Source: Paracoccus nototheniae (GTDB taxonomy: Bacteria; Pseudomonadota; Alphaproteobacteria; Rhodobacterales; Rhodobacteraceae). From it: a stretch of DNA of 64,000 nucleotides. The notes beneath the pieces are model-generated. The model was not told the DNA's origin. It saw only the letters and a list, made by a program, of their open reading frames with translations, and ran no database searches. This document shows positions 2,405-62,206 of this stretch, one piece after another. The position numbers and the translations under genes were made by a program. Location of the stretch: contig NZ_RQRT01000001.1 of NCBI RefSeq assembly GCF_004335005.1, positions 62,001 to 126,000 on the forward strand. Direction: 5' to 3'. Each line of letters begins with the position of its first letter. Position 1 is the first letter of the stretch.

Positions 2405-3514
2405 CTAGCGTTCCAGCAGAGCCTGAATTTCCACCATCAGGCTGTCCATCAACTCGCTGGTGATCGCCGCCCCCTCAAGCCTCAGGATATGGCCCTGCGT
2501 GTCTTGCGAGCGCCGGATCGTCACGCCACTGGACGTGCGCAGCGTCTTGTCGTTGATCCAGCCCGTCACCGGCTGGCTTTTGCGCGGCCGCCCGCCCTTG
2601 CGCAGGTCACGCTCGGTCGGATCGATGGTGGTGATGGCGGGCTGGATAGTCTGCCATTCCTCCTCCGCATCCGCAGGTGGGTGCTCGGACAGAGCCTGAC
2701 GCAGCCGCGCCTCGGCGCCCTGACGCAGGGCCTGGGCCAGTTGCAGCCCCCTTCTTTCGGTCAGACCCTCGGGGAATTGCAGCATGTCGCCCAGTTCCTC
2801 GAAGATCAGCGCAAAAGACCGGATTTTGGACCTTTTGGCCTTGGACCCGGTGGCGAACAGCTTGTCCACCGCATCTTCGGTATTGGCAAAGGCGCCATGA
2901 TTGGCCGCGATGACGGCAATCCGACCGCGTTCGAAATGGCTCAGCTGCTCGCGGACCTCGTTTTCCTCGATCATCGAGACGAAGGCGCTGCCATTGTCGG
3001 CATGGGGCCGGACAATGGCCCTGATGGTGCGGTATTTCTCGGCCTCGGTCAGCTCCAGCAAGCCCCGGACGGCCAGCAGCCGGCGATAACCCGACAGCAG
3101 ACCATAACGCTGCCCCTTGGGCCCGGGCGCCTGCAATTCGAACACCTCGATGGGCAGGCGCAACCCATGCGCGGCGATCGACAGCCGCAGCTCCAGCATC
3201 TCGGGCTCGCCCATCGACATGCGGTCGCGGATCATCGCATCCGCGTCGATATCGCCGACCGCAATCTCGGTCATCAGCAAGCCCTGCGCCTGCGCGGCGG
3301 CAAGGCGCGCGGCATCGGCCTCGGTTCGTGCGCGGGCGGCGCGGCTGTCGGTGCCGCCCGCATGGCTGTGCAGCGCGCTGTCTGCGGCAACCTGGGCGAT
3401 CGGCGCGATGCCGCGCGCGCTGGCCGGGCGGTCGAAGGTTTCGCTGCGAAACTCTTCCTCGATCCGGCTCAGGTCATCGGTGCTTGGGGTTTCAAGACGC
3501 CTGCGCTTAGCCAT
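2405..3514 (-). CDS. parB: ParB-family partition protein
   Basis: 369 aa, the centromere-binding partner of ParA in plasmid segregation. The N-terminal ~95 residues are polar (ParA-interaction region in the family). A ParB/RepB nuclease-like core follows, with 'GLRLPIEVFEL', 'YGLLSGYRRLLAVRGL' (the G-x-R-R motif) and 'SMIEENEVREQLSHFERGRIAV', and then a helix-turn-helix region. A low-complexity linker leads to a C-terminal segment ending 'SELMDSLMVEIQALLER' that could dimerise. The start overlaps the parA stop by 8 bp, so the two are translationally coupled in a parA-parB operon. A parS-like palindrome lies inside the coding sequence at 3437-3452. Homology class is clear; the exact subfamily is not assigned. 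Confidence 0.92.
   Translation of the reverse strand: MAKRRRLETPSTDDLSRIEEEFRSETFDRPASARGIAPIAQVAADSALHSHAGGTDSRAARARTEADAARLAAAQAQGLLMTEIAVGDIDADAMIRDRMSMGEPEMLELRLSIAAHGLRLPIEVFELQAPGPKGQRYGLLSGYRRLLAVRGLLELTEAEKYRTIRAIVRPHADNGSAFVSMIEENEVREQLSHFERGRIAVIAANHGAFANTEDAVDKLFATGSKAKRSKIRSFALIFEELGDMLQFPEGLTERRGLQLAQALRQGAEARLRQALSEHPPADAEEEWQTIQPAITTIDPTERDLRKGGRPRKSQPVTGWINDKTLRTSSGVTIRRSQDTQGHILRLEGAAITSELMDSLMVEIQALLER
3437..3452. promoter_or_regulatory. parS-like palindrome 2, inside parB
   Basis: GGTTTCGCTGCGAAAC matches the sites at 2387 and 4988 at every position except the variable central base; only the outermost C is lost (T at 3453). It lies within the first ~26 codons of parB on the opposite strand, where it could let ParB bind its own gene. 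Confidence 0.65.
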
Positions 3515-4901
3515 CGGACTTCTCCTCCCGTTCGGCCTTTTCCAACTGCAGATCGCGCCACCAAGCGCCCAGGATCAGTTCCTTGACCTCGGCCCAGGTA
3601 CGATCGAACGTCTCGCGCCCGCGGACATAGGTCTCTCGGTTGAACTCTCGGTAATCGGCCTCATAGATGCCGTTCACCTGCTCGCCCGCCTGCCCGACCA
3701 TCGCGGTCAGTTCCTGACGGTATGTCGTCATGAAATCGCCGAAATAGGCCTGGATGACATTGGCCAGATCGGTCTGCTGACCCGCCTCGAACCGGGTGAT
3801 GATCGCACGCACCGCATCCCATTCAAAGCGCATTTCCGGCAGCCCGTCGCGGCGCCGGGCCTTGTTCTCGCCATCCTCGACGCTGGCGAAGGTGGAATAC
3901 AGCATGTCGAAGAACCGCCCCGTCGAGTCGAATTCCAGGAAGGTCGCGCCAAGCGGCACCAGCAGGATATCGGCAGCCGCCAGCGCATTGATGGTCAGGT
4001 AGCCAAGGGCAGGGGGGGTGTCGATGAAGATCAGATCGTATTCGTCAAAGATCTTGTCATGGCTCAGCCCATTGGCCAGCGCGTCCCACAGGGGCCAGCT
4101 GCGCAGGCCCATGCGCCAGACCGGCACCTGAAATTCCGCCCAGTAGAGGTTCAGCTGCGCACCCAGCAGGTCGATATTGGGCCAGTGGGTCGGCTGGATC
4201 AGGTCGCGGGCGGTGATCTTCAGCGCCTCGGTCAGGGTCTCGTCGAAGGGCAGGGGGGCTTGGCCTGCCGCCTCCCGCACCCGGTTTTCCCCCTGCAGGG
4301 CCAGGGCGTAATCCTTGGCCAGCAAGGGGAAGGCCGTCGACCATTCGTCCTGCACCTGCCCGCCCATGATCGAGGTCATGCTGCCCTGGCTGTCCAGATC
4401 GATGACCAGCACCTTGTATCCGTCCAGCGCCGCCGACATCGCCAGATGCGCCGCGGTCGAGGTCTTGCCGACGCCGCCCTTGAAATTGGCAACGGCAATG
4501 GTCTTGGCGGGCAGGCCCTTGGGTCGCCATGGCTGGTATTCCCGATCCGCCGCCCCTTCGGTCGCGAAATGGTCGCGCAGGCGCAACACCTCGTCCAGCG
4601 TGAACCATTTCGAGTTCCCCTCGCCACTGCCTTGGGGCAGCTCGGGAAACTTGCGCAACACGCGCCGGAAATGGGCGGTGGCCACCGGGATCAGATAGCG
4701 GCAGACTTCCCAGGTGGAAAACCGGCGCAGCCGCTTGCGACCGTCGGGGGCATAGCCGCGTTCGGCCAGATCCTGACGCCCGCGCGAGGCAAAGGCGGCC
4801 GCCTTTGCGAATCGGGCGGTCCCGATCGGCTCGGACAGGCGCTTGGCGGCACGGGCGGGGTCGATGTTAAAATAGGGGGGAAGTGGCTCTTTGCCTGACA
4901 T
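3507..4901 (-). CDS. parA: ParA-family partition ATPase (type Ia, with N-terminal DNA-binding region)
   Basis: 464 aa from the ATG at 4901; in-frame upstream codons exist but the MSGKEPLPPY start has an AGGA-like site close by and fits the family. Residues ~1-130 are an N-terminal extension with a MerR/HTH-like region ('RRFSTWEVCRYLIPVATAHFRRVL'), as in autoregulatory type Ia ParA proteins. The ATPase starts with the deviant Walker A 'VANFKGGVGKTSTAAHLA' (signature Lys then GKT), then 'VLVIDLDSQGSMT' (A' motif) and 'YDLIFIDTPPALGYLTINALAAAD' (Walker B region). It drives segregation together with ParB and probably represses the parAB promoter. parB follows with an 8-bp overlap. Its upstream region is the replication origin region, transcribed divergently from rep. 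Confidence 0.93.
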   Translation of the reverse strand: MSGKEPLPPYFNIDPARAAKRLSEPIGTARFAKAAAFASRGRQDLAERGYAPDGRKRLRRFSTWEVCRYLIPVATAHFRRVLRKFPELPQGSGEGNSKWFTLDEVLRLRDHFATEGAADREYQPWRPKGLPAKTIAVANFKGGVGKTSTAAHLAMSAALDGYKVLVIDLDSQGSMTSIMGGQVQDEWSTAFPLLAKDYALALQGENRVREAAGQAPLPFDETLTEALKITARDLIQPTHWPNIDLLGAQLNLYWAEFQVPVWRMGLRSWPLWDALANGLSHDKIFDEYDLIFIDTPPALGYLTINALAAADILLVPLGATFLEFDSTGRFFDMLYSTFASVEDGENKARRRDGLPEMRFEWDAVRAIITRFEAGQQTDLANVIQAYFGDFMTTYRQELTAMVGQAGEQVNGIYEADYREFNRETYVRGRETFDRTWAEVKELILGAWWRDLQLEKAEREEKSDG

Positions 4902-4987
4902 CTCGATCCTGCTGCGATGTATCGGGTTTCTGCGCATTGTGCTGAAACTCTCGCACATCGGATCGCAGATTGGAATTCCGCGATCGA

Positions 4988-5004
4988 GGTTTCGCCGCGA
5001 AACC
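4988..5004. promoter_or_regulatory. parS-like palindrome 3, upstream of parA
   Basis: GGTTTCGCCGCGAAACC is a perfect 17-bp palindrome around a central C and identical in both arms to the site at 2387. It lies 87 bp upstream of the parA start, between parA and the iterons, where ParB binding could also affect parAB transcription. Confidence 0.75.
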
Positions 5005-5040
5005 CTTGAAATCATCAGAGTCAGGCGTCCCAAAGCTTGT

Positions 5041-5100
5041 AGAGTCTTTATGGACTTTAGAATCTTTGCATAATTATTATGATTTTAAACCAATGAATTA
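5041..5100. other. AT-rich block of the replication origin (candidate DNA-unwinding element)
   Basis: By hand count only 14 of 60 bases are G or C (about 23%), in a replicon otherwise strongly GC-rich. It ends about 10 bp before the first iteron, the usual position for the unwinding element of an iteron origin. It may also hold the divergent parA and rep promoters. I see no confident DnaA box. Confidence 0.6.
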
Positions 5101-5110
5101 CGTCAGGTTC

Positions 5111-5362
5111 GGTATCCGCCTACGGGATCAGGGGTGTCCGTCTACAGGGCGTGGGGTGCCCGTTTGCAGGGCGGGGGGCACCGATTCGCGGGAACAGGGG
5201 CATCCGGATGCGGGATTGGGCAAAACAAGGGCGGGATCGACGGCAAATGGGTGCCCGGCCTGTTCCTGCGTCCTGTAAACGGGTGCCTTCAGGTCGGCGC
5301 CATCAGGACAGGTGCCCGTCTACGGGAGGGTGGGAAACTCGGTTGGGGTGCCCGTTTGATGG
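5111..5362 (+). repeat. Iteron array of the replication origin (oriV)
   Basis: Five 16-bp iterons begin at 5111, 5133, 5155, 5177 and 5199, exactly 22 bp apart, so they lie on one helix face. Examples are GGTATCCGCCTACGGG and GGTGTCCGTCTACAGG; the family consensus is roughly GGTGYCCGTYTRCRGG, and the fourth and fifth copies are the most diverged. Further copies are a partial one at 5250, an inverted one at 5272-5287, and direct copies at 5311-5326 and 5347-5362. The last ones are close to the rep start and could mediate autorepression or handcuffing. Rep, encoded just downstream, is the expected binding protein. Confidence 0.85.
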
Positions 5363-5416
5363 TTGTTTGCAGGTTCCTTTTGGCGCAACATCGGGACAGA
5401 TCAGACGAGCAGAGCC

Positions 5417-6589
5417 ATGGACGATATTCCCCGCGATCAGCTGTCGGGCGCCCTGCGACGAGGCGCCGTCAAAAAGCATGTGGCGGCGATCCATGTGTCG
5501 GGCAAGCTGACCCTGCTGCAACGCAAGCTGTCGAACGTGCTGTTGCTGAACGCCTATGACACGCTGACCAGCCGGACCAGCCATCAGATCGATGCGCGGA
5601 CGCTGTGCCTGATGATCGGCTATAACAGCAACGACATGGACACGCTGAAACAGTCGCTGCGCGGGCTGGTCGAGACGGTGGCGGAATGGGACATGCTGGA
5701 CGAAAAGGGCCAGCAGGAATGGGGCGTGTCCAGCCTGCTGAGCTATGCCAAGCTGAAGGGCGGGGTTTGTGAATATGCCTATTCCCCGGCTTTGGCGGAA
5801 AAGCTGCACGACCCCAAGATGTTCGCGCTGATCAACCTGAACATTCAGCGGCGCTTTACGTCCGGCCATGCGCTGGCGCTGTATGAGAACTGTTATCGGT
5901 TCGTGCGGACGGGTTCGACCGGCTGGTGGCAGCTGGATCTGTTCCGTCGCCTGATGGGGGTCGAGGGGTCGGCCTATTACGAGGTCTTTAAGCAGCTGAA
6001 CGCCAAGATCATCAAGCCCGCGGTGGCCGAGGTGAACAAGACCAGCAACATCATCCTGACGCCCGAGATCCACAAGCAGGGCAGGGCGGTCACGCAGATC
6101 CGGTTCCGGATCACCGAAAATCCCCAGCTGGCCATTCTGGACATGGACGACGGCGAGGGGATGCGCCATGGGGCGGTTTATGCCCGGTTGCGCGTGCTGG
6201 GCGTCAGCGACCGGCTGGCCCGGCAATGGCTGGCGGCCCATGGCGAGGGGCAGGTTGCCGCCAAGCTGGACTATGTCGAGACCCGGCAAAATGTCAAAAG
6301 CAAGCTGGGCTATCTGACCGCCGCGCTGGACGGGAATTTCGGGGCAGGGGAGGGGGCCGCCCCCCCGGTGCCCGATGCCGTGGTCGCCATCAGCCCCGGG
6401 GCCGAACGTCTGCGCCGCATCCTCGAGATCATCAAGACCCGCACGCCGACGCAGCGCGACGCCGACAAGCGGCTGTTCGTCAGCCAGCTGACCGATGCGC
6501 GCGCCCGGGCGGATTTCGAACGGCATGGATGGATGTCGCCGCTGAACGCCCGGCGGATTGCTGAATTCTGGGAAGAGATGTCCTTGTAA
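5417..6589 (+). CDS. Iteron-type plasmid replication initiator (Rep_3/RepB-like, winged helix)
   Basis: 390 aa. The start MDDIPRDQ at 5417 is preferred over an upstream in-frame ATG at 5363 because it lies beyond the last iterons and fits the family. The N-terminal half resembles the RepA/RepB initiators with tandem winged helices: 'KLTLLQRKLSNVLLLNAYDTL', 'LCLMIGYNSNDMDTLKQSLRGLVETVAEWDML', then 'LINLNIQRRFTSGHALALYENCYRFVRTGSTGWWQLDLFRRLMGV' and 'YYEVFKQLNAKIIKPAVAEVNKTSNI'. It should bind the upstream iterons, open the AT-rich block and recruit the replisome. It is transcribed away from parAB. A 22-bp hairpin separates its stop from the convergent ArsA-like gene. Confidence 0.9.
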   Translation: MDDIPRDQLSGALRRGAVKKHVAAIHVSGKLTLLQRKLSNVLLLNAYDTLTSRTSHQIDARTLCLMIGYNSNDMDTLKQSLRGLVETVAEWDMLDEKGQQEWGVSSLLSYAKLKGGVCEYAYSPALAEKLHDPKMFALINLNIQRRFTSGHALALYENCYRFVRTGSTGWWQLDLFRRLMGVEGSAYYEVFKQLNAKIIKPAVAEVNKTSNIILTPEIHKQGRAVTQIRFRITENPQLAILDMDDGEGMRHGAVYARLRVLGVSDRLARQWLAAHGEGQVAAKLDYVETRQNVKSKLGYLTAALDGNFGAGEGAAPPVPDAVVAISPGAERLRRILEIIKTRTPTQRDADKRLFVSQLTDARARADFERHGWMSPLNARRIAEFWEEMSL

Positions 6590-6596
6590 GCCGCGT

Positions 6597-6618
6597 GCGA
6601 TGCCCCAAGGGGCGTCGC
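6597..6618. terminator. Hairpin between convergent rep and ArsA-like genes
   Basis: GCGATGCCCC and GGGGCGTCGC pair across an AA loop with one mismatch/wobble. It fills the 30-bp gap between two convergent stop codons, so it could end transcription from both sides. There is no T-tract, so it is a weak intrinsic terminator by sequence. Confidence 0.4.
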
Positions 6619-6619
6619 C

Positions 6620-7564
6620 TCAGGGCAACGTGTCGCCGCCCAGGGCCAAGGCGAGATCCTGCAGCGGCGCGACCCCCGTGGGTTCGGACGGCGTCTGCGC
6701 GATCTGCGCCATCGGCAGGTCGGGCCAGACCTGCCGCAGCGGCGCCAGACGGGCAGCGGTCGCATCGGGCGTCTGGTTCGGGGGAATGCGGTTCACCACG
6801 ATCGCGCCCAGGGGGATGCCGCCCTGATCCAGCGCGCGACCCAGGGCCAGCGTCTCTTGCACGGGCATCCGTTCGGGCGTGGTGACGGCGACGAAGGTCG
6901 TGCGGGCGGGGTCGGTCATGTGGTCGCGCAGCCCGGCCAGCCGCGCGCGACGGCGTGTCAGGGTCTGGCGGATGGCCTCGCTGCGCGGATCGCCCCCGGC
7001 ACTGCCCGTGGCCAGCGCGCGGGCGCGGGCGGAAAAGCGGTCGGCCTCGACCCGGTTGGCGATCATGCCGTCGGTCCAGGCGGTCATCATCTCTGGCAGG
7101 GCCAGCAGGGTCAGCGTGTGGCCGGTGGGCGCCGTGTCCAGAACCAGATGGTCGATGGTCTCGCCGATGCCTGCGGCAAGTTCGGCGATGCGGTCCAGAA
7201 GCGCGGCCTCGGCCATGCCGGGGGCGTGGCGGGCGCGCGACAGGTGGCGGTCGATCTCGGCCCGGCCGCCGCGTGGCATGACCTGCGCCAGAAAATCCCC
7301 GACCTGCGCCAGATGGTCGGTCACGGCCTGATCGGGGTCCAGCTCGATCGCGGTCAGGTTCGGGGCGATGGTCACCGGATGCGGGCCGATTGCGCGTTCG
7401 AAGAGATGCCCCAGATTATGCGCCGGATCGGTCGAGACCAGACAGACCCGCCGCCCCCGTCCCGCCAGCGCCAGCGCCGCGCTGGCCGAGACGGTGGTCT
7501 TGCCCACGCCGCCCTTGCCGCCAAAGACGATCAGCCCCCGCCGTCCCAGCAGATCTAGCAGCAT
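6620..7564 (-). CDS. ArsA/Get3-family ATPase in a cstA operon
   Basis: 314 aa, a single-domain P-loop ATPase of the ArsA/Get3 (TRC40) class within the SIMIBI group. Visible motifs: deviant Walker A 'VFGGKGGVGKTTVSASAALALA' near the N-terminus, 'LVSTDPAHNLGHLF' (the DPAH switch), and 'LVLDTAPTGHTLTLLALPEMM' (DTAPTGHTL signature). Start MLLDLLGRRG at 7564 is chosen because it overlaps the preceding gene by 10 bp; a longer in-frame start exists but would run deep into that gene. No arsenite-binding Cys set of classical ArsA is seen and no arsenic genes are nearby. Its partners are a CstA-type transporter and a small CC-ended protein, so an assembly, regulatory or membrane-targeting role for that transporter is a better inference than arsenite export. 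Confidence 0.85.
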   Translation of the reverse strand: MLLDLLGRRGLIVFGGKGGVGKTTVSASAALALAGRGRRVCLVSTDPAHNLGHLFERAIGPHPVTIAPNLTAIELDPDQAVTDHLAQVGDFLAQVMPRGGRAEIDRHLSRARHAPGMAEAALLDRIAELAAGIGETIDHLVLDTAPTGHTLTLLALPEMMTAWTDGMIANRVEADRFSARARALATGSAGGDPRSEAIRQTLTRRRARLAGLRDHMTDPARTTFVAVTTPERMPVQETLALGRALDQGGIPLGAIVVNRIPPNQTPDATAARLAPLRQVWPDLPMAQIAQTPSEPTGVAPLQDLALALGGDTLP

Positions 7565-7824
7565 CGGATGTGATCCAGCGGCGAATGGGGCATCCCCATC
7601 CGCCGGTGCCAGTCGTGGAAATCGTCCCACATCAGCGGCATCAGTTCCAGCGTATAGGGCGTGGCGGGGTTGGGGATGCCAAGCGCCTCGGAAAACACCA
7701 GCAGCCGGAACAGGTCGTCGCGGTCCCGCGCCGCGCGCGCCAGCAGCTGGCGATAGGGGGCGCGGTAATATTCCGCCAACCCCTGCGCGATGGCCTGCCA
7801 GCGGCTGGTCTGCTGGCCCGTCAT
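7555..7824 (-). CDS. Small conserved protein ending in Cys-Cys ('cory-CC-star'-like)
   Basis: 89 aa from the ATG at 7824, which overlaps the cstA stop as ATGA. Charged and aromatic, no membrane segment: 'QGLAEYYRAPYRQLLARAARDRDDLFRLLVFSEALGIPN', then 'LMPLMWDDFHDWHRRMGM', ending 'LDHIRCC' at the stop codon. I recall a family named for a C-terminal CC-stop that accompanies CstA transporters and ArsA-like ATPases; size, ending and neighbours all fit, but I could not verify the family name. The terminal Cys pair could bind a metal or be a lipid or client-recognition tail for the ATPase. Function unknown. Confidence 0.75.
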   Translation of the reverse strand: MTGQQTSRWQAIAQGLAEYYRAPYRQLLARAARDRDDLFRLLVFSEALGIPNPATPYTLELMPLMWDDFHDWHRRMGMPHSPLDHIRCC

Positions 7825-9503
7825 TCGGCGGGATGCCGGTGGGCCAGCAGCGAAAAGCCCGTGCTGCGCAGCGCGGTCACAGCCGAGATGCCGACCAGAA
7901 TCGCTGCCCCCAGAATGAACAGCGCCATCGTGGCCAACGTCCAGTTCGCCTCGCCCAGAAAGGTGCCGATCTGCAGCAGCAGCGCATAGATGGCCATGGT
8001 CAGGACCAGCACCAAAGGCACCAGCGTATAGATTACCGGCCGCCCGAGCCGGGCCAGAATCACCGTCACCATCAGCAGCGTCAGCGAGGCCAGCAACTGG
8101 TTCGAGGTGCCGAACAGCGGCCAGATCACCATGCCGCCCGTCCCGTCCGAGGCCGCGCCGAAGGCGATCGCCAGACAGAAGCCGATGGCCAGCAGGGTGG
8201 CCAGCGTGCCGTTCTTCAGCGCGGTGACGCCGGTGATCTCTCCGGCTTCCTGAATGACATAGCGTTGCAGGCGGACCCCGGTATCCATCGTCGTGCCCGC
8301 AAACAGCGCTGCCGTCACCGTCAGGATGGTCGCGGCCAGTCCGGCGGGAATGCCCAGACCCTGCGAGACGATCGTGGCGCCGCCGGTCACGAAAGCCCCG
8401 ACGCTGCCTTGTCCAAAGCTGGTATAGACCGCCTGCCATTCGGCCAGCGAGGCAAAGCCCGCCGTGGCGCAGACGATGGCGGCCAGTGCCAGCATCCCCT
8501 CGCCCACCGCGCCGCCATAGCCGACCAGCCGGCCATCCGTCTCAAGATCCAGCTGCTTGGAACTGGTTCCCGACGAGACCAGCCCGTGGAACCCCGAGAT
8601 GGCGCCACAGGCGATGGTCACGAACAGCAGGGGCGCGATGGGCGGCGTGCCTTCGGGCACCTGATCGTTGATGAAGGGCACCACGACCGTCGGCGCCGAC
8701 AAAAGCGCGGCCGCATAGATGATGCCAAGCGCCACGAACAGCTGGATGCCATTGATGTAATCGCGCGGCTGCAGCAGCATCCAGACCGGCAGGGTCGAGG
8801 CGATGCCCGCATAAAGAAACAGCAGCAGCACCCACACCACCCGGTCGCTGAGGCCGAACATCTCGGTCGGCAGGGCCACCGGCACGGCATTGCCCAACAG
8901 GATCAGCCCGTACAGCAGCGCGACCCCGATGATCGTGGGCCACATCAGCCCGGCGCTGCTGCGATACAGCACCTGCCCGATGCCGATGGCCACGACGATG
9001 GCGCCCCAGACCGGGATGACGGCGGTCGGGAACTGGATCAGCAGGTTGGTGATGACGGTGGCGAATGCGGCATTCACCATCAGCAGCACCAGGAACATGA
9101 TCAGCATGAACATCCAGCGCGCCCGGCTGCCCAGCAGGCTTTCACTCAGCGCTCCGATCGACTGGCCCCGGTTGCGGACCGACGCCCAAAGCGCGCCCAT
9201 GTCATGCACACCTGCGAAGAACACCGTGCCCAGCACCACCCACAGGAAGGCCGGGCCCCAGCCCCAGATCACCGCGATGGCCGGGCCGACGATGGGCGCC
9301 GCCCCCGCGACAGAAGTGAAATGATGGCCCCACAGCACATAGCGGTTGGTCGGAACAAAATCGATGCCGTCCCGGAATTCATGCGCGGGGGTGCGGAAGC
9401 TTTCGTCCAGCTGATAGATCCGCGAGGCGATGAAGCGCGAATAGACGAACCACCCCGCCAGGATTCCGACAAGGCCAAAGCCGATGAGCACCAGTGAATT
9501 CAT
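7821..9503 (-). CDS. cstA: CstA-family carbon starvation / peptide or pyruvate transporter
   Basis: 560 aa polytopic inner-membrane protein with well over ten hydrophobic segments. Family signatures include 'TPAHEFRDGIDFVPTNRYVLWGHHFTSVAGAAPIVGPAIAVIWGWGPAFLWVVLGTVFFAGVHDMGALW', 'RNRGQSIGALSESLLG', 'SGFHGLVSSGTSSKQLD' and 'GTTMDTGVRLQRYVIQE'. CstA proteins take up peptides and the related BtsT/YjiY takes up pyruvate; the substrate here is not fixed. It is shorter than E. coli CstA (~700 aa) at the C-terminus. First gene of a three-gene operon with the CC-ended protein and an ArsA-like ATPase, both overlapping. Confidence 0.92.
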   Translation of the reverse strand: MNSLVLIGFGLVGILAGWFVYSRFIASRIYQLDESFRTPAHEFRDGIDFVPTNRYVLWGHHFTSVAGAAPIVGPAIAVIWGWGPAFLWVVLGTVFFAGVHDMGALWASVRNRGQSIGALSESLLGSRARWMFMLIMFLVLLMVNAAFATVITNLLIQFPTAVIPVWGAIVVAIGIGQVLYRSSAGLMWPTIIGVALLYGLILLGNAVPVALPTEMFGLSDRVVWVLLLFLYAGIASTLPVWMLLQPRDYINGIQLFVALGIIYAAALLSAPTVVVPFINDQVPEGTPPIAPLLFVTIACGAISGFHGLVSSGTSSKQLDLETDGRLVGYGGAVGEGMLALAAIVCATAGFASLAEWQAVYTSFGQGSVGAFVTGGATIVSQGLGIPAGLAATILTVTAALFAGTTMDTGVRLQRYVIQEAGEITGVTALKNGTLATLLAIGFCLAIAFGAASDGTGGMVIWPLFGTSNQLLASLTLLMVTVILARLGRPVIYTLVPLVLVLTMAIYALLLQIGTFLGEANWTLATMALFILGAAILVGISAVTALRSTGFSLLAHRHPAE

Positions 9504-10239: not shown

Positions 10240-10791
10240 ATGAACCGCGACACTGGGCAAGCACCCCCCGGCTTGGTGCAGGTCACCACCGACCGGGGCA
10301 GCGACTTCTGGCGCAGCACCCATTACGGGTTCACGCGGGACAGCGGGCATTTTCTGGGGCGGTCGTGGAGGGGTGATTTCACGGCCTCTGTGCGGGTCAG
10401 GGGCGATTATACCGAACTTTACGATCAGGCCGGCATCATGGTGCGGGTCGATGAGACGGCATGGATCAAGGCCGGGATCGAACTGTCGGACGGGGCGGCC
10501 TGCCTTGGCAGCGTGCTGACCAACGGATCGTCGGATTGGGCCACGTCCCCCTATGCCGGCAAGGCCTCGGATCTGTATCTGCGCGTGACGGTGGCAAAAG
10601 GCGTTCTGCGACTGCAGACCTCCGAGGATGGTCTGCGATGGCCGCTGCTGCGGCTTTGCCCGTTTCCCGTCGCGCAATCCTATCTGGTCGGCCCGATGTG
10701 CTGCACCCCCGAGCGTGAGGGTCTGAAGGTCAGGTTTTCCGATTTCCATGTCGGCCCGCCGCTTGGCAAGGCTTTGCACGATCTCACCTGA
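10240..10791 (+). CDS. DUF1349-family protein (5' end apparently frameshifted)
   Basis: 183 aa from the ATG at 10240. Body typical of DUF1349 / 'regulation of enolase 1' beta-sandwich proteins: 'VQVTTDRGSDFWRSTHYGFTRDSGHFLGRSWRGDFTASVRVRGDYTELYDQAGIMVRVDE', then 'WIKAGIELSDGAACLGSVLTNGSSDWA'. The usual N-terminus is present but in another frame: ATG at 10215 reads MFDSCTWLNEPRHWAS, and removing one C from the C6 run at 10264-10269 joins it to 'PGLVQVTTD'. So the intact ancestral gene was probably 10215-10791. Function of the family is not established; a carbohydrate-binding lectin-like fold is likely. Its 3' end overlaps the convergent YciI gene by 8 bp. Confidence 0.8.
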   Translation: MNRDTGQAPPGLVQVTTDRGSDFWRSTHYGFTRDSGHFLGRSWRGDFTASVRVRGDYTELYDQAGIMVRVDETAWIKAGIELSDGAACLGSVLTNGSSDWATSPYAGKASDLYLRVTVAKGVLRLQTSEDGLRWPLLRLCPFPVAQSYLVGPMCCTPEREGLKVRFSDFHVGPPLGKALHDLT

Positions 10792-11095
10792 CTGCGGCTT
10801 GGTCGCGCGATCTGAGGTGGATCATCGGGAAATGGTCGTAATGCCCGACGCCGTTCCTGATGATCGGGTCTTCGCCGGTCAGGGCCGCAATGTCCTGGCC
10901 CGCATCGATCTGCCACAACGAGACGCCATAGCTGCCCGTCGGATCGATCACCGGGCCATGCGCCACGACAAGACCGCGCGATGTCATCTCGTCCAGATAG
11001 GCGCCATGCTGTCCCATCCAGATCTTTTCGTCGGGTGTCATGGTGGACAGGAAATCGGCGCGGGGCGGAATGAATTTGCAAAGATAGCCTGGCAT
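10784..11095 (-). CDS. YciI-like family protein
   Basis: 103 aa soluble alpha/beta ferredoxin-fold protein of the YCII family: starts 'MPGYLCKFIPPRADFLSTMTPDEKIWMGQHGAYLDEMTSRGLVVAHGPVID', with the conserved His and Asp region and the 'GSYGVSLWQIDAGQDIAALTGEDPIIRNGVG' half. Members are small dimers with proposed hydrolase-like or signalling roles; no specific reaction can be assigned. It is transcribed away from the TetR gene, and a palindrome lies between them, so it is the probable target of that regulator. Confidence 0.85.
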   Translation of the reverse strand: MPGYLCKFIPPRADFLSTMTPDEKIWMGQHGAYLDEMTSRGLVVAHGPVIDPTGSYGVSLWQIDAGQDIAALTGEDPIIRNGVGHYDHFPMIHLRSRDQAAVR

Positions 11096-12044: not shown

Positions 12045-12875
12045 ATGCTGGACGTTCGCTCTGCCACCAAACTGTTCGGCCAGAAGGCCGCCGTCGACAA
12101 TGTCAGCATGACCGTGAACGGTCCGGCCTTTGTCGGCATCATCGGCCGGTCCGGTGCCGGGAAATCGACCTTTCTGCGTATGATGAACGGGCTGACGCCC
12201 GCCAGCGGCGGACAGATCCTTGTCGATGGCCGCGATATTCTGGCGCTGCGGGGGGCCGACATGCGCGCCTGGCAAAGCCAATGCGCGATGATCTTTCAGC
12301 AGTTCAATCTGGTGCCGCGCATGGATGTGGTGTCGAATGTGCTGCACGGCATCCTGAACCGCCGCGCGACCTGGTCGACGGTGCTGAACCTGTGGCCCCG
12401 CGCCGACATTGTCCGCGCGCTGGAAATCCTCGACCGCCTCGGAATCGCCGAACAGGCCCCCAAGCGCGCTGAGGCCCTATCGGGCGGCCAGCAGCAGCGC
12501 GTGGCGATCGCCCGGGCGCTGATGCAGGATCCCCGCATCATTCTGGCCGATGAACCCATCGCCAGTCTGGACCCGATGAACGCGCAGATCGTGATGGACA
12601 CGCTGAAGCGCATCAATGTCGAGGATGGCCGCATGGTCATCGCCAACCTGCACACGCTGGACACCGCGCGCCGCTATTGCGACCGGGTGATCGGCATGCG
12701 GGACGGGCGGGTGGTCTTTGACGGCGTGCCCGACCAGCTGACCACCAATGTCGCGCGCGAGATTTACGGCGCCGACGCGGATTTCAACGAATCCGCCACC
12801 TCGACCGCGATCACCCCCGATCCCAGCCCCGACGCCCGCAAGGATGCCGAATACGCGGCGCAGATGCTGGCCTGA
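12045..12875 (+). CDS. phnC: Phosphonate ABC transporter ATP-binding protein PhnC
   Basis: 276 aa ABC ATPase that powers phosphonate import. Walker A '[20 protein letters not shown]', Q-loop region '[26 protein letters not shown]' (the NVLHG stretch is typical of PhnC), signature '[15 protein letters not shown]', Walker B '[26 protein letters not shown]' and H-loop '[28 protein letters not shown]'. First gene of phnC-phnD-phnE-phnE-SDR, behind a tandem Pho box. phnD follows after 23 bp. Confidence 0.95.
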
Positions 12876-12898
12876 CCCTGACCCCTCCGGAGAGACCC

Positions 12899-13798
12899 AT
12901 GACCCGACTGATGACCCTGCTGGCCACCACCGCAGCGCTGGCCACCCCCCTGCATGCGCAGGAAATCACCGAGTTCCGCATCGGCCTGCTGGGCGGAGAG
13001 AACGCGCAGGACCGCATGGCGTCCAACGAATGCCTGCGCGGCTATGCCGAAGAAGCGCTTGGCGTGCCCGTCCGCCTGTTCACCCCCGCCGATTACAACG
13101 GCGTCATTCAGGGCCTGCTGGGCGACGCGCTGGACATGGCGTGGCTGGGCGCATCCGCCTATGCCGCCGTCTATGTCGCGGACGAGGAAAAGGTCGAGCC
13201 GGTTCTGGTCAAGACCAATCTGGACGGCAGCTATACCTATCATTCCATCGGCTTTGCCCGCGCCGACAGCGGCATCACCTCGCTGGACGATATGGAGGGC
13301 AAGTCCTTTGCCTTTGCCGATCCCAATTCGACCTCGGGGTTCCTGATCCCGAATGTGGAACTGCCTGCCGAAGGCTATTCGATGACCGAGGGCGACTATT
13401 TCAGCCGCATCGGGTTCTCGGGCGGGCATGAGCAGTCGATCATCGCGGTCGTGAATGGCGATTACGACGCGGGCGTGACCTGGGCGGACGGGCAGGGCGC
13501 ATGGGAAGACGGCTATAATTCCGGCGCGCTGCGCAAGGCCGCCGACAGCGGCATCGTCGACATGAACGACATCGTCGAGATCTGGAAATCCTCGCCCATT
13601 CCGGAAGGTCCGGTGGTCCTGCGCAAGGATCTGCCCGCCGATGTCAAACAGACGATGATCGATCTGGTCGCAGGCCTGCACGAGACCGACCCCGAATGCG
13701 CCTATGGCGTCGCAGCGGGCGAGACGGCGGGCTTTTCCCCGGTCACGCACGAGGAATACCAGACCATCATCGACATCCGCCGCGCCGAGATGAACTGA
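12899..13798 (+). CDS. phnD: Phosphonate-binding periplasmic protein PhnD
   Basis: 299 aa with a short signal peptide ('LMTLLATTAALATPLHA'). Body typical of PhnD: 'EFRIGLLGGENAQDRMASNECLRGYAEEALGVPVRLFTPADYNGVIQGLLGDALDMAWLGASAYA', 'SYTYHSIGFARADSGITSLDDMEGKSFAFADPNSTSGFLIPN' and 'WADGQGAWEDGYNSGALRKAAD'. It captures phosphonates in the periplasm for the PhnC/PhnE importer. Start has GGAGAG nearby. A strong hairpin follows its stop codon. Confidence 0.95.
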   Translation: MTRLMTLLATTAALATPLHAQEITEFRIGLLGGENAQDRMASNECLRGYAEEALGVPVRLFTPADYNGVIQGLLGDALDMAWLGASAYAAVYVADEEKVEPVLVKTNLDGSYTYHSIGFARADSGITSLDDMEGKSFAFADPNSTSGFLIPNVELPAEGYSMTEGDYFSRIGFSGGHEQSIIAVVNGDYDAGVTWADGQGAWEDGYNSGALRKAADSGIVDMNDIVEIWKSSPIPEGPVVLRKDLPADVKQTMIDLVAGLHETDPECAYGVAAGETAGFSPVTHEEYQTIIDIRRAEMN

Positions 13799-13815
13799 TC
13801 CCTCTGCCCAAACAG

Positions 13816-13845
13816 GACCGGACCCCGCGCAGGGTCCGGTCTTTT
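13816..13845 (+). terminator. Intercistronic hairpin with T4 tail after phnD
   Basis: A perfect 10-bp stem (GACCGGACCC with GGGTCCGGTC) closes a 6-nt loop and is followed by TTTT. It sits between phnD and the first phnE, so it is probably a partial terminator or mRNA-stabilising element that raises binding-protein output over the permeases. Confidence 0.75.
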
Positions 13846-13863
13846 CATATCCGGGAGGCCGCG

Positions 13864-14709
13864 ATGGCACTGGCAGACATCCGCGACGATTATCTGGCGC
13901 TGACGCGCCGCCGCCGCCTCTATGGCGGGTTGCTGGTCGTGATCTTCGTGGCCATGATGGTGTCGGGGTTTCGCGTGGCCGACGGTCGCAATGCCGGGGG
14001 CTTCTGGCAGGGCCTGTCCAGCGTCGGCGATTTTCCCGCCGATGTGGTGTCCGAGGCGGTCGCGAAATTCGCCAATCTGCCCGGTCATATGGTCCGCGCC
14101 ATGCCCGCGATGATCGAGACGCTGAACATCGCGCTGGTCGCCACCCTGCTGGGCTGCATGGCGGGCACTGCGCTGGCCATGGGATCGACCCGCGGGCTGG
14201 CGCGCTGGCCGCGTCTGGTGCCGGTCATGCGCCGCATTTCCGACGTGTTCCGCGCCATCCCGGAAATCGTCATCGCGCTGGTGCTGATCTTCATTCTGGG
14301 CGGCGGCCCGGTCCCCGCCGTGATCGCCATCGCCATCCACACGGCAGGCGCCATGGGCAAGCTGTTTTCCGAGGTGAACGAGAACGTCGATCTGAAACCG
14401 CTGGACGGGCTGGCCTCGGTCGGGGCGAACTGGTCGCAGCGCATCTGGCTGGGGGTGATCCCGCAGGTGGCGCCCAATTACCTGTCCTATGGCCTGTTGC
14501 GGCTGGAAGTGAACATCCGCGCATCCGCCATCCTGGGGTTCGTCGGTGCGGGCGGCATCGGATACGAATTGCGCAACGCGATGACCTTCGGGCAGGGCAA
14601 GTTCGATCAGGCGGCGGCGATCTTTCTGATGCTGTTCGCCGCGATCGTGGTGGTCGATCAGATCTCGGGTGTGGCCCGCAACCGCCTGACACACGGAGCA
14701 GCCCTGTGA
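13864..14709 (+). CDS. phnE: Phosphonate ABC transporter permease PhnE (first)
   Basis: 281 aa inner-membrane permease. Start ATG 13864 has GGGAGG upstream. After a short cytoplasmic N-terminus come about six hydrophobic segments, with the coupling-helix (EAA-type) region 'KPLDGLASVGANWSQRIWLGVIPQVAPNYLSYGLLRLEVNIRASAILGFVGAGGIGYELRNAM', typical of PhnE. Pairs with the second PhnE and PhnC. Its stop overlaps the next start as GTGA. Confidence 0.92.
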   Translation: MALADIRDDYLALTRRRRLYGGLLVVIFVAMMVSGFRVADGRNAGGFWQGLSSVGDFPADVVSEAVAKFANLPGHMVRAMPAMIETLNIALVATLLGCMAGTALAMGSTRGLARWPRLVPVMRRISDVFRAIPEIVIALVLIFILGGGPVPAVIAIAIHTAGAMGKLFSEVNENVDLKPLDGLASVGANWSQRIWLGVIPQVAPNYLSYGLLRLEVNIRASAILGFVGAGGIGYELRNAMTFGQGKFDQAAAIFLMLFAAIVVVDQISGVARNRLTHGAAL

Positions 14710-16034
14710 CCGCCCTTCCCATGACCGCCGACACCCTGCACGACCGCACCATCCGCCTGATGGACCGCAAACGGCGCCTTGCGCTGGCCGTGCCCGCGCT
14801 GATCCTGGCCTATCTGGTCTATGCCGCCATGGCCTTTGATCTGGCCGGGCTGGCGCAGCGGGCGCGGCTGGACAATGCCGCCGTGCTGATGGCCGACATG
14901 GTGACCCACAAGGTTCACGTCACCCGCGACAATCGCCGCGAGACCCTGTCGGTCAGCGTCGAGGGGTCGAACCGCGCCACCTATCCCGCCGACCGCCTGC
15001 CGGACTGGATCGACGCCGGTGGCGCGATCACCCGCATCGATCTGGGCGCAGGGCATGTGGTGACCTATGACGGGCCGCGCGTGGTCTATGACATTCCCGA
15101 TTACGGCCCCGTGACGCTGGACACGACCGACGGCGTGGCGCTGGACGTGCCGGGCGGCACGCTGCCCGATTTCATCAACGCATCCCCTGCCCGCGTGACC
15201 ATCACCACCGATCAGGGCCGCGTCACCGCCACCCGGTCGCGCACCGAAACGCTGCGCTATTTCTGGGGGTGGGAGATGTTTTTTTTCGACCTTTCCAGCC
15301 CGTTCTCGGGGCAGTCGGCGGGCGCGGTGCTGGGCACCATCCTGGGGGGCGAACGGCTGGTCGAGGGCCGCAGCAACCTGTCGCTGGCCCTGTCAGAGTT
15401 CTGGACCAATGACATCTGGCAGCATGGCGCGGTCGCATGGGCCATCTTCGAGACCGTTCTGATGGCCTTTCTGGGCACCTTCGGCGCGGCCTTCGTGGCG
15501 CTGCCGCTGGCCTTTCTGGCGGCGCAGAACTTTACCCCGTCGCGCTGGCTGCGGTTCGGCATCCGCCGCGTCTTCGATTTCGTGCGGGGCGTGGATGCGC
15601 TGATCTTCACGATCATCCTGTCGCGCGCCTTCGGCCCCGGTCCGCTGACCGGCGCGCTGGCGATCCTGTTGACCGACACCGGCAGTTTCGGAAAGCTGTT
15701 TTCCGAGGCGCTGGAGAACGTGGATGACAAGCCCGTCGAAGGCATCCGGTCCACCGGCGCCAATGCGCTTCAACGCTATCGGTTCGGGGTGATCCCGCAG
15801 ATCCTGCCGGTGCTGTTGTCGCAGATGCTGTATTTTCTGGAATCCAACACCCGCAGCGCGACGATCATCGGCGCCATCACCGGCGGCGGCATCGGTCTGC
15901 TGCTGACGCAGGCGATCCAGACGACGCAGGATTGGGAAAAGGTCACCTATTACATCCTGCTGGTGATCGCGATGGTGATCGCGATGGACAGCCTGTCGGG
16001 CTGGCTGCGCCGCAAGCTGATCCGCGGCGGATGA
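14706..16034 (+). CDS. phnE: Phosphonate ABC transporter permease PhnE (second, with large insert)
   Basis: 442 aa, much longer than the ~280 aa of the first PhnE. Start is GTG 14706 overlapping the previous stop (ATG at 14721 is an alternative). One hydrophobic segment (about 28-48) is followed by ~170 residues of polar, beta-rich sequence ('MVTHKVHVTRDNRRETLSVSVEGSN' to 'VTITTDQGRVTATRSRTET') before the membrane block starting near residue 190. That insert would lie in the periplasm. The C-terminal part has the permease signature 'KPVEGIRSTGANALQRYRFGVIPQILPVLLSQMLYFLESNTRSATIIGAITGGGIG'. The downstream SDR gene overlaps as ATGA. Confidence 0.9.
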   Translation: MTALPMTADTLHDRTIRLMDRKRRLALAVPALILAYLVYAAMAFDLAGLAQRARLDNAAVLMADMVTHKVHVTRDNRRETLSVSVEGSNRATYPADRLPDWIDAGGAITRIDLGAGHVVTYDGPRVVYDIPDYGPVTLDTTDGVALDVPGGTLPDFINASPARVTITTDQGRVTATRSRTETLRYFWGWEMFFFDLSSPFSGQSAGAVLGTILGGERLVEGRSNLSLALSEFWTNDIWQHGAVAWAIFETVLMAFLGTFGAAFVALPLAFLAAQNFTPSRWLRFGIRRVFDFVRGVDALIFTIILSRAFGPGPLTGALAILLTDTGSFGKLFSEALENVDDKPVEGIRSTGANALQRYRFGVIPQILPVLLSQMLYFLESNTRSATIIGAITGGGIGLLLTQAIQTTQDWEKVTYYILLVIAMVIAMDSLSGWLRRKLIRGG

Positions 16035-60917: not shown

Positions 60918-62206
60918 CGCAGCATCCCGCAACCGGCGCCGACCGCAACGGACCTGCTCTGGCGGGCAAGGTCGGTCAGGGCGCCAGACTGGATCAGGGC
61001 GACAGCCGCGTGCGCCATGATGCCGGATTGTCCGGCGCGCTGCGCGGCTTCATCGACCGGGTGCGGTCCGGCGATCTGGGCATGCTGCCGGTCGCGGTCG
61101 GCCTGCTGCTGATCTCGGGCGCGTTCACGGCGCTGAACCCGATCTTTCTGGCGCCCGCCAATCTGGTCAACATGCTGTTCGACGCCGCCGCCGTCGGCTT
61201 TATCGCCCTGGGCGTCGTCTGCGTCCTGCTGCTGGGCGAAATCGATCTGTCCATCGGCTCGATGAGCGGGCTGTCCTCGGCCATCATCGGGGTCTTATGG
61301 ATCCAGACCGGCCTGCCGCTGCCCGTGGCGATCGCAGGCGCGCTGGCGATGGGCGCGCTGGTCGGCATGGCCTATGGCTTTCTGCGCAACCGGTTCGAGA
61401 TGCCCAGCTTTGTCGCCACCCTGTCGGGCCTTCTGGCGCTGCTGGGGTTGCAACTGTACATTCTGGGGCCGTCCGGGTCGATCAACCTGCCGTTCACCTC
61501 GCCTCTGGTGCGGTTCGGCCAGATCCTGATCATGCCCGCATGGCTGTCCTATGCGGTGGCGGTGCTGCCGGGCATCGCGATCGTGTGGGGCACGATGCGC
61601 GCCAACCGGCGCCGGATCGCCGCGAACCTGTCTTCGACCGGGCTCAGCGTCGCGGTGGCCAAGGCGGCCTGTCTGACGCTGGCACTGGTCTTTGCGGTGT
61701 CCTACCTCGAGCGCAGCCGGGGCGTGCCGCTGATGTTCGGCGTCTTCGTGCTGTTCGTCGTGGCGCTGGATTATGCGCTGGTGCGCACCAAATGGGGCCG
61801 CTCGATGTTCGCCGTCGGCGGCAATGCCGAAGCCGCGCGCCGGGCGGGCATCGATGTGCGGCGCATCCGCCTGTCGGCCTTTGTGGTCTGTTCGACGTTT
61901 GCGGCCCTTGGCGGCATCTTCGCCGCCGCGCGTCTGGCCTCGGCCAGTCAGCAGGCCGGGACGGGCGACGTGAACCTGAACGCCATCGCGGCGGCGGTGA
62001 TCGGCGGGACATCGCTGTTCGGGGGGCGGGGATCGGCATGGTCGGCGCTGCTGGGCGTGCTGGTGATCATGGCGATTTCGAACGGGCTGACGCTTTTGAA
62101 CCTCAGCTCGTCCCTGCGTTATATGATCACCGGGGCGGTGCTGGCCATCGCGGTCATCGTCGACAGCCTTGCGCGACGGTCGCGCGCCAACAACGGACGC
62201 GCCTGA
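60914..62206 (+). CDS. Sugar/pentitol ABC permease (XylH/RbsC family)
   Basis: 430 aa with about ten or more hydrophobic segments after a ~55-residue hydrophilic N-terminus. Typical blocks: '[38 protein letters not shown]', '[42 protein letters not shown]', '[84 protein letters not shown]'. The closest match in layout is XylH. It works with the binding protein and single-domain ATPase. Confidence 0.92.

Follow-up and report, generated by a model that had tools for sequence, protein, structure and literature searches.

The cstA–CC–arsA locus of Paracoccus nototheniae

We have analysed a set of three overlapping genes in a stretch of 64,000 nt from Paracoccus nototheniae (positions 62,001 to 126,000 of contig NZ_RQRT01000001.1; hereafter 'the window', in whose numbering the coordinates of these genes are given). 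All three genes are located on the minus strand, at positions 6620–9503, with coordinates verified from the sequence: a cstA-type transporter gene of the short CstA branch (7821–9503, 560 aa, PF02554), a gene for a small helper protein of 89 aa that ends in Cys-Cys (7555–7824, NF041419; called cory-CC-star or CstX, and here the CC protein) and a gene for a single-domain ArsA/Get3-type ATPase (6620–7564, 314 aa, TIGR00345 and PF02374). The trio is a known set, reported in 2010 (Castillo & Saier), and the window carries an ordinary member of this family. We add to that report the constant pairing of the CC gene with arsA, the invariant His and Cys residues of the CC protein, the lack of a conserved Cys in the ATPase and a parallel with the DUF466 family.

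The end of cstA, stop codon included, shares four bases with the start of the CC gene (7821–7824, minus strand). The CC gene, whose product reads ..HIRCC* at its end, shares ten bases with arsA (7555–7564, minus strand), the arsA start lying inside the two Cys codons and the stop codon (ATGCTGCTAG). An earlier sequence-only reading of the window had described three overlapping leftward genes here, an 89-aa protein with Cys-Cys at its stop and a single-domain ArsA/Get3-type ATPase with intact Walker A, DPAH and DTAPTGHTL motifs; coordinates, translations and family assignments bear out this description. The start of arsA was taken as ATG 7564, the counterpart of the annotated start in Paracoccus aestuarii, and an ATG is found at the equivalent place in 43 of 80 relatives; GTG 7630 was rejected as a mere mechanical extension of the open reading frame. 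The idea that the CC end is a by-product of the overlap with the arsA start was rejected as well, since in 12 of the 80 relatives the arsA frame opens past the CC stop and the CC end is kept. Compared with P. aestuarii p296221, the ratio of nonsynonymous to synonymous substitution rates is 0.10 for cstA, 0.18 for the CC gene and 0.30 for arsA; all three genes are therefore under purifying selection.

In P. aestuarii the annotation shows no arsenic gene closer than 8 kb to the trio (the gene tables of PLSDB have gaps). The source genome of the window, which was searched for ArsD but not for arsB, acr3 or arsR, has no ArsD match. Among the window proteins scanned, namely the trio and the flanks 2405–6589 and 10240–11095, no arsenic family was found, a scan that did not include a search for arsR, arsB or acr3.

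The accessible text of Castillo & Saier 2010 (PMC2963123) lists 26 ArsA-CstA associations, 24 of them with CstX. The operons described there have the same adjacent genes as the window, a small protein of about 90 aa and a single-domain ArsA of about 330 aa; arsenic genes are absent, and adjacent ArsA pairs are reported too. That text makes no mention of the CC end or of the His pair.

Recurrence of the three genes

The recurrence of the set was surveyed at 107 loci: 80 from the genome collection (the best 80 of 537 found in a scan for relatives of the CC gene), 15 from an actinobacterial set, four from the order of genome G307, five from Pseudomonadota and three from plasmids. The window and the loci of genomes G378 and G381 are outside this count. 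The DNA around the CC gene is identical in four pairs of loci (L009/L068, L021/L205, L026/L029 and L214/L215), which leaves about 103 distinct places.

At every one of the 107 loci the CC gene is followed by arsA, and at 77 of them a CstA of the window type is encoded upstream in the same orientation. The three genes are a recurrent unit; the sequence-only reading had suggested a survey of this kind. Because ArsA always follows the CC gene and CstA is upstream in only 77 loci, the ATPase would appear to belong to the CC protein. The 30 loci without an upstream CstA comprise 27 with other genes upstream (some flanks are shorter than 3 kb), one (L031) with a long CstA downstream and two (L217 and L064) that lie too near a contig end to be judged. 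In the genome collection, the pair is apart from any CstA in the flanking DNA examined at 27 of the 79 readable loci, whereas the accessible text of PMC2963123 has CstX never occurring without CstA. The genome-collection loci without an upstream CstA come from 29 genomes; a CstA is present somewhere in 25 of them (for L031, the downstream one) and is of the short kind in 22, and the 21 of these that were placed on the tree described below all fall inside the clade of CC-partnered CstAs.

The CC family was detected in six of 299 Pseudomonadota genomes, all six among the 156 with CstA (chance 0.02). In the actinobacterial set (178 genomes from the phylum of a Corynebacterium), 17 genomes have a CC-family match, 14 of them over the cut-off and the divergent G378 and G381 included; CstA is present in 17 of 17 (one of the CstA matches, in G473, is a fragment) versus 44 of 178 overall, with a hypergeometric probability of 3e-12, not corrected for relatedness. 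The order of G307 has the family in five of 200 genomes, G307 counted. Six plasmid records carry CC-gene relatives (P. aestuarii, 88.9% identity; four Pseudochrobactrum, 67.9%; Cytobacillus, 49.4%), and all three genes stand together on each of the three records that were opened. Finally, we looked for a TIGR00345 ATPase over the cut-off in 22 selected genomes. All 10 that have the CC family gave one, and not one of the 12 that have CstA without the CC family did; the presence of the ATPase in these chosen genomes tracks the CC gene, not CstA.

Invariant residues of the CC protein

The window protein scores 127.7 bits with the NCBIfam model NF041419, cory-CC-star (curated cut-off 80), the short description of which gives the name only and no function, and it has no Pfam match at E 0.001. 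We aligned 101 sequences, the window protein and 100 relatives (83 distinct over the last 70 residues; rows L220–L224, from G378 and G381, were excluded). G49, H70, H73, G77, C88 and C89 are invariant, and every sequence combines H70xxH73 with the terminal Cys-Cys. A membrane-like segment is absent, the largest 19-residue hydropathy mean being 1.54 among the 101 sequences and 0.78 in the window protein. In this respect the protein differs from CstX as given in the accessible text of PMC2963123, where it has a single transmembrane segment (in archaeal cluster 14, which may not define the bacterial members). The AlphaFold model, built with 59 rows, predicts two helices and a tail, with a predicted local distance difference test (pLDDT) score of 81.2 and a predicted template modelling (pTM) score of 0.54. 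A fold search of the PDB with this model gave no match with E below 5.9, and a search by sequence for a solved relative gave none that was credible (best E 0.23).

A divergent variant occurs in G378 and G381, where cstA is found with small proteins lacking the CC end and with two different ArsA genes in tandem (L240 and L241 in G378, L242 in G381). There are two such small proteins in G378, and one clear and one weak match in G381. In the three that are readable, the two His and the two Cys are all missing, and LNIWK or ISTWK takes the place of the FHDWH of the other CC proteins; His and Cys have therefore been lost together. One of the tandem ArsA genes has GGKGGLGKT, with the DTAP motif missing.

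An ATPase without conserved cysteines

The motifs of the window ATPase are GGKGGVGKT, STDPAH and DTAPTGHTL; among 81 ATPases (window and 80 relatives) Walker A is kept in 80 and DTAPxGHT in all 81. The protein scores 206.1 bits with TIGR00345 (GET3/ArsA/TRC40; cut-off 135), a model that covers Get3/TRC40 and ArsA alike, and 190.2 bits with PF02374, to which the source genome has one strong match (189.6 bits; the next best is 33). With 314 aa and 132.2 bits it falls short of the model for the two-domain ArsA of about 580 aa (TIGR04291, cut-off 650). Solved relatives include archaeal ArsA/Get3-type proteins and eukaryotic Get3.

The window ATPase contains one Cys and lacks the metalloid-binding Cys of arsenical-pump ArsA, and no column of the 81-sequence alignment reaches 20% Cys. 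CxxC, the zinc motif of Get3, is missing in the window protein and in 80 of the 81 ATPases, and present in one. Since no Cys is conserved in the ATPases, thiol chemistry, if there is any, would be on the small protein.

The arsenite system consists of a two-domain ArsA with metalloid Cys, a thioredoxin-fold ArsD and an arsenite pump. It resembles the trio in having a small protein with a Cys pair encoded directly upstream of arsA, along with a carrier gene; on one Comamonas plasmid an arsD ending in CC is located directly before arsA, followed by arsC and then by an ACR3-type pump gene. The window differs from that system in its one-domain ATPase and in having CstA as the carrier.

A clade of CC-partnered CstA transporters

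The window CstA matches PF02554 with 431.7 bits (E 5.9e-129, gathering score 27). It misses PRK15015, the long-CstA equivalog of the E. coli-type pyruvate/proton symporter, with 204.6 bits versus a cut-off of 1188, and it has no credible solved relative by sequence (best E 0.12). A quick tree of 117 rows was made without bootstrap, after removal of 16 fragments, the window's second copy (L013), seven near-duplicate rows and ten long-branch rows. The CC-partnered CstAs, that of the window included, and the 21 unlinked short CstAs make one clade of 76 of the 117 rows, with a support of 96 in the Shimodaira–Hasegawa-like approximate likelihood ratio test (SH-aLRT). Outside this clade are the long branch and a solo branch made up of CstAs of a single gammaproteobacterial family. 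The sole CC-linked CstA that is not in the clade, that of L031, is placed in the long branch. Near the CstAs of the solo branch (L190–L194, L196–L199, L203 and L204) no gene like a CC-ended partner was seen.

DUF466, a second CC-tailed family next to CstA

Another small protein family, DUF466 (PF04328; YbdD), associates with the long CstA branch. It is present in 50 of the 299 Pseudomonadota genomes, 49 of which have CstA (the lists were compared by eye); the remaining genome, G125, has a completeness of 78%. In 35 loci the DUF466 C terminus is CC in 29 and CPC in six, and two His are conserved in 97% and 100% of the proteins. Ends of the Cys-Pro-Cys kind instead of Cys-Cys were noted in the DUF466 proteins of L125–L129, L188 and L230. 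A P-loop GTPase gene adjoins DUF466 in 11 of the 35 loci (by motif search, in flanks of about 1.5 kb or less); the five of these genes that were family-scanned are all PF02492 cobW with CobW_C (COG0523 type).

As far as the accessible texts go, deletion of ybdD in E. coli brings pyruvate uptake down to 20% of wild type, with indirect effects being discussed (Hwang et al., PMC5847655); some DUF466 members end in Cys-Sec, for which a redox activity was suggested (Cravedi et al., PMC4607533); and the COG0523 protein YjiA prefers Zn, as judged from measured affinities and calculation (PMC7895991).

The system of CstA/BtsT with YbdD/YjiX (DUF466) and YjiA is thus like the trio in combining a CstA-family transporter, a CC-tailed small protein and, sometimes, an adjacent P-loop NTPase. 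It differs in the long CstA (about 663–714 aa versus about 485–589, some rows being cut by contig ends), in a non-homologous small protein and in a GTPase where the trio has an ATPase. The CC protein of the window has no profile match to PF04328 (DUF466/YbdD); between the two families no homology was detectable (hhalign probability at most 1.5%; nothing in a cross hmmsearch). None of the six CC genomes of the Pseudomonadota has DUF466, an overlap of zero that is not significant (0.33), and DUF466 occurs in five of 46 CC-bearing genomes, each time beside a long CstA. At L031 (4956–8535, G307) the CC-ArsA pair is found directly before a long CstA, normally a partner of DUF466; no DUF466 was found in G307, a 1.9-Mb metagenome bin whose completeness is not established. 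This would be a natural partner swap.

Neighbouring genes

The window belongs to a contig of 211 kb. ParB-like, ParA/RepA-like and Rep3-type replication genes adjoin the trio (2405–6589), with scores that do not reach the ParA/ParB equivalog cut-offs; because of these neighbours the contig is probably a plasmid or chromid, with the trio beside a plasmid origin. Farther along, the gene set at 12045–16034 has the appearance of an ABC importer, which by eye, and without a family scan, we take to be of the phosphonate type (ATPase, binding protein and two permeases).

Among the loci without an upstream CstA, 17 of 29 have near the pair a gene similar to the ZnuD-like TonB receptor of L036, as do 0 of 51 linked loci. 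Also near the pair, in 16 of the 29, is the gene for a small protein with weak similarity to DUF2946 (E 0.023); in L036 this gene and that of the receptor are at 6435–9060. A sodium-dependent (NSS) transporter, encoded upstream of the pair at 21 of the 29 loci, was weighed as another candidate partner. We rejected it because its gene is part of a block that we read, with gene labels presumed from the sequence, as smpB-ratA-rnfH-bamE-fur; the NSS, ZnuD-like and cytochrome c' identities in this block come from family scans.

In Gram-positive lineages, cstA and the CC gene can have a fourth small gene between them: this is so in nine of the 15 loci from the actinobacterial set and on one Bacillota plasmid, that of Cytobacillus (L247: 5699–5986). 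The loci are L207–L213, L216, L217 and L247 (L243 is the same place as L217 and does not add to the count). Eight of the ten proteins have a CCGR motif, and the three that were scanned gave no Pfam match below E 0.2. That this gene is a homologue of arsD is not claimed (hhalign probability 4%).

A possible mechanism

The reading that we tentatively favour, and would put a little short of probable, is that the ATPase loads or remodels a His2Cys2-bearing CC subunit which then activates CstA. The CC protein (CstX) would be an activating subunit of the transporter, and ArsA a dedicated ATPase of the CC protein, not directly of CstA. As a dimer, and with the ATP-driven cycle typical of SIMIBI NTPases, ArsA would load or remodel the His2-Cys2 end. 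This step would most likely consist in placing a transition metal such as zinc onto the CC protein, or else in setting its thiol state; zinc as the metal is a less secure part of the proposal than the general scheme. The matured CC protein would then dock at the cytoplasmic side of CstA and license the uptake of pyruvate or peptides. We infer from the sequences the action of the ATPase on the CC protein, the single four-residue site, the loading and the docking; the substrates suggested for a short-branch CstA, pyruvate or peptides, are carried over from the CstA family.

Support for this scheme comes from the pairing of CC gene and arsA at all 107 loci, as compared with an upstream CstA at 77, from the tracking of the CC family by TIGR00345 in the chosen genomes (10 of 10 versus 0 of 12), from the nesting of the 21 placed unlinked short CstAs in the CC clade, from the invariance of H70, H73, C88 and C89 in 101 sequences and from their joint loss in the variant of G378 and G381. 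The ZnuD-like receptor gene near 17 of the 29 CstA-unlinked pairs points the same way, as does the parallel with DUF466, which includes CstA, a His pair, a Cys pair, a cobW GTPase and the Zn-preferring YjiA. To this can be added the lowered pyruvate uptake on ybdD deletion in E. coli, as given in the accessible text of PMC5847655.

Several observations weigh against this scheme. Three near-complete genomes, G015, G276 and G288 (L200–L202), have a CC-clade CstA and lack the CC family, DUF466 and any over-cut-off ArsA, which, on the gene content of these genomes, speaks against a strict dependence of CstA on the CC protein and ArsA. Conversely, seven of the 29 pair-bearing genomes have no CC-clade CstA: no CstA was found in G302, G312, G318 and G325, and only a long one in G299, G324 and G307; these are six metagenome bins and one uncultured isolate (L071), of completeness not established. 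To judge from its sequences, the duplicated variant of G378 and G381 retains CstA and ArsA with no CC end, and so the association itself is possible without a His2Cys2 site. As for the DUF466 parallel, the short flanks examined contain no GTPase gene of this kind at 24 of the 35 loci, the parallel may be convergent or irrelevant because the CC family and DUF466 have no detectable homology, and the Cys-Sec ends described in the accessible text of PMC4607533 would argue, by analogy, for redox over metal. The ZnuD neighbourhood is one gammaproteobacterial gene block, not 17 independent events, and the L036 receptor, the only one of the 17 that was family-scanned, scores 435 bits with NF038289 (cut-off 950).

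A wider generalization, which we consider doubtful, is that cory-CC-star and DUF466 are two unrelated families each serviced by its own SIMIBI NTPase (ArsA and a COG0523 GTPase, respectively), which would charge the His2Cys2 end with a metal (probably zinc); the two CstA branches would then represent a general class of NTPase-matured, metal-gated transporters.

Alternative explanations

The sequence-only reading had called the function of the trio undescribed. A mechanism was in fact proposed in 2010: the accessible text of Castillo & Saier (PMC2963123) has ArsA energising CstA with CstX as the link, and corresponding trees for ArsA, CstX and CstA. As to experiments the statement stands, in that none, and, to judge by the titles listed, no later work on the trio, was found in the literature searched (most subscription journals were outside it); that literature also gave no paper naming both 'ArsA family ATPase' and 'carbon starvation protein', and none using the name 'cory-CC-star'. 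The 2010 proposal, by which a secondary carrier would become ATP-driven as with ArsA and ArsB, is the strongest of the alternatives, albeit an unlikely one. It has in its favour the correspondence of the trees and the formal parallel of the arsD-arsA-arsC-pump order on the Comamonas plasmid. A stoichiometric pump subunit would not be expected to stand away from its carrier, as the pair does in 27 of 79 readable loci (mostly of one gammaproteobacterial group), and CstAs of the same clade occur in genomes without ArsA (G015, G276 and G288). Moreover, the ATPases have no conserved Cys, and the accessible text of PMC2963123 itself holds that homologues without the metalloid Cys cannot share the ArsA mechanism.

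Rather less probable is a redox switch, in which the terminal CC would be a thiol-disulfide sensor that gates CstA and is reset by ArsA. The Cys-Sec ends of DUF466 in the accessible text of PMC4607533 and the fourth small gene of ten loci, with CCGR in eight of its ten proteins, would fit such a switch. The two invariant His that accompany the Cys are taken as more typical of metal sites, and calling the fourth protein thioredoxin-like is a reading only, since none of the three examples that were scanned matched a Pfam family with E below 0.2.

We consider it improbable that the ATPase acts as Get3 does, as a chaperone or insertase for a membrane client (CstA or another protein) with the CC protein as adaptor. 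The TIGR00345 score over the cut-off and the archaeal ArsA/Get3-type and eukaryotic Get3 structures among the solved relatives are compatible with this role, which the sequence-only reading had suggested, but no evidence specific to it was obtained: CxxC is missing in 80 of 81 ATPases, CstA is a many-helix protein and not tail-anchored, and the CC protein has no membrane-like segment.

Least likely in our view is that CC and ArsA handle metal as a module of their own and accompany CstA only on occasion. Seven of the 29 genomes with the pair lack a CC-clade CstA, and ZnuD-like neighbours are present at 17 of 29 loci, both of which would suit such a module; against it stands the presence of CstA in 17 of 17 CC genomes of the actinobacterial set and in six of six of the Pseudomonadota.

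Significance

The favoured scheme, loading or remodelling of the CC subunit by ArsA, would make the trio a possible example of a transporter whose small, cysteine-tailed subunit is made ready by an ATPase, and a mutagenesis test of four residues would follow from it. According to the accessible text of PMC5847655, the CstA of E. coli depends on YbdD, a small partner protein; if the scheme is true, a Cys2His2 subunit matured by a dedicated ATPase would act as a transporter switch, and the recurrence of CC-tailed proteins and P-loop NTPases beside CstA would be explained.

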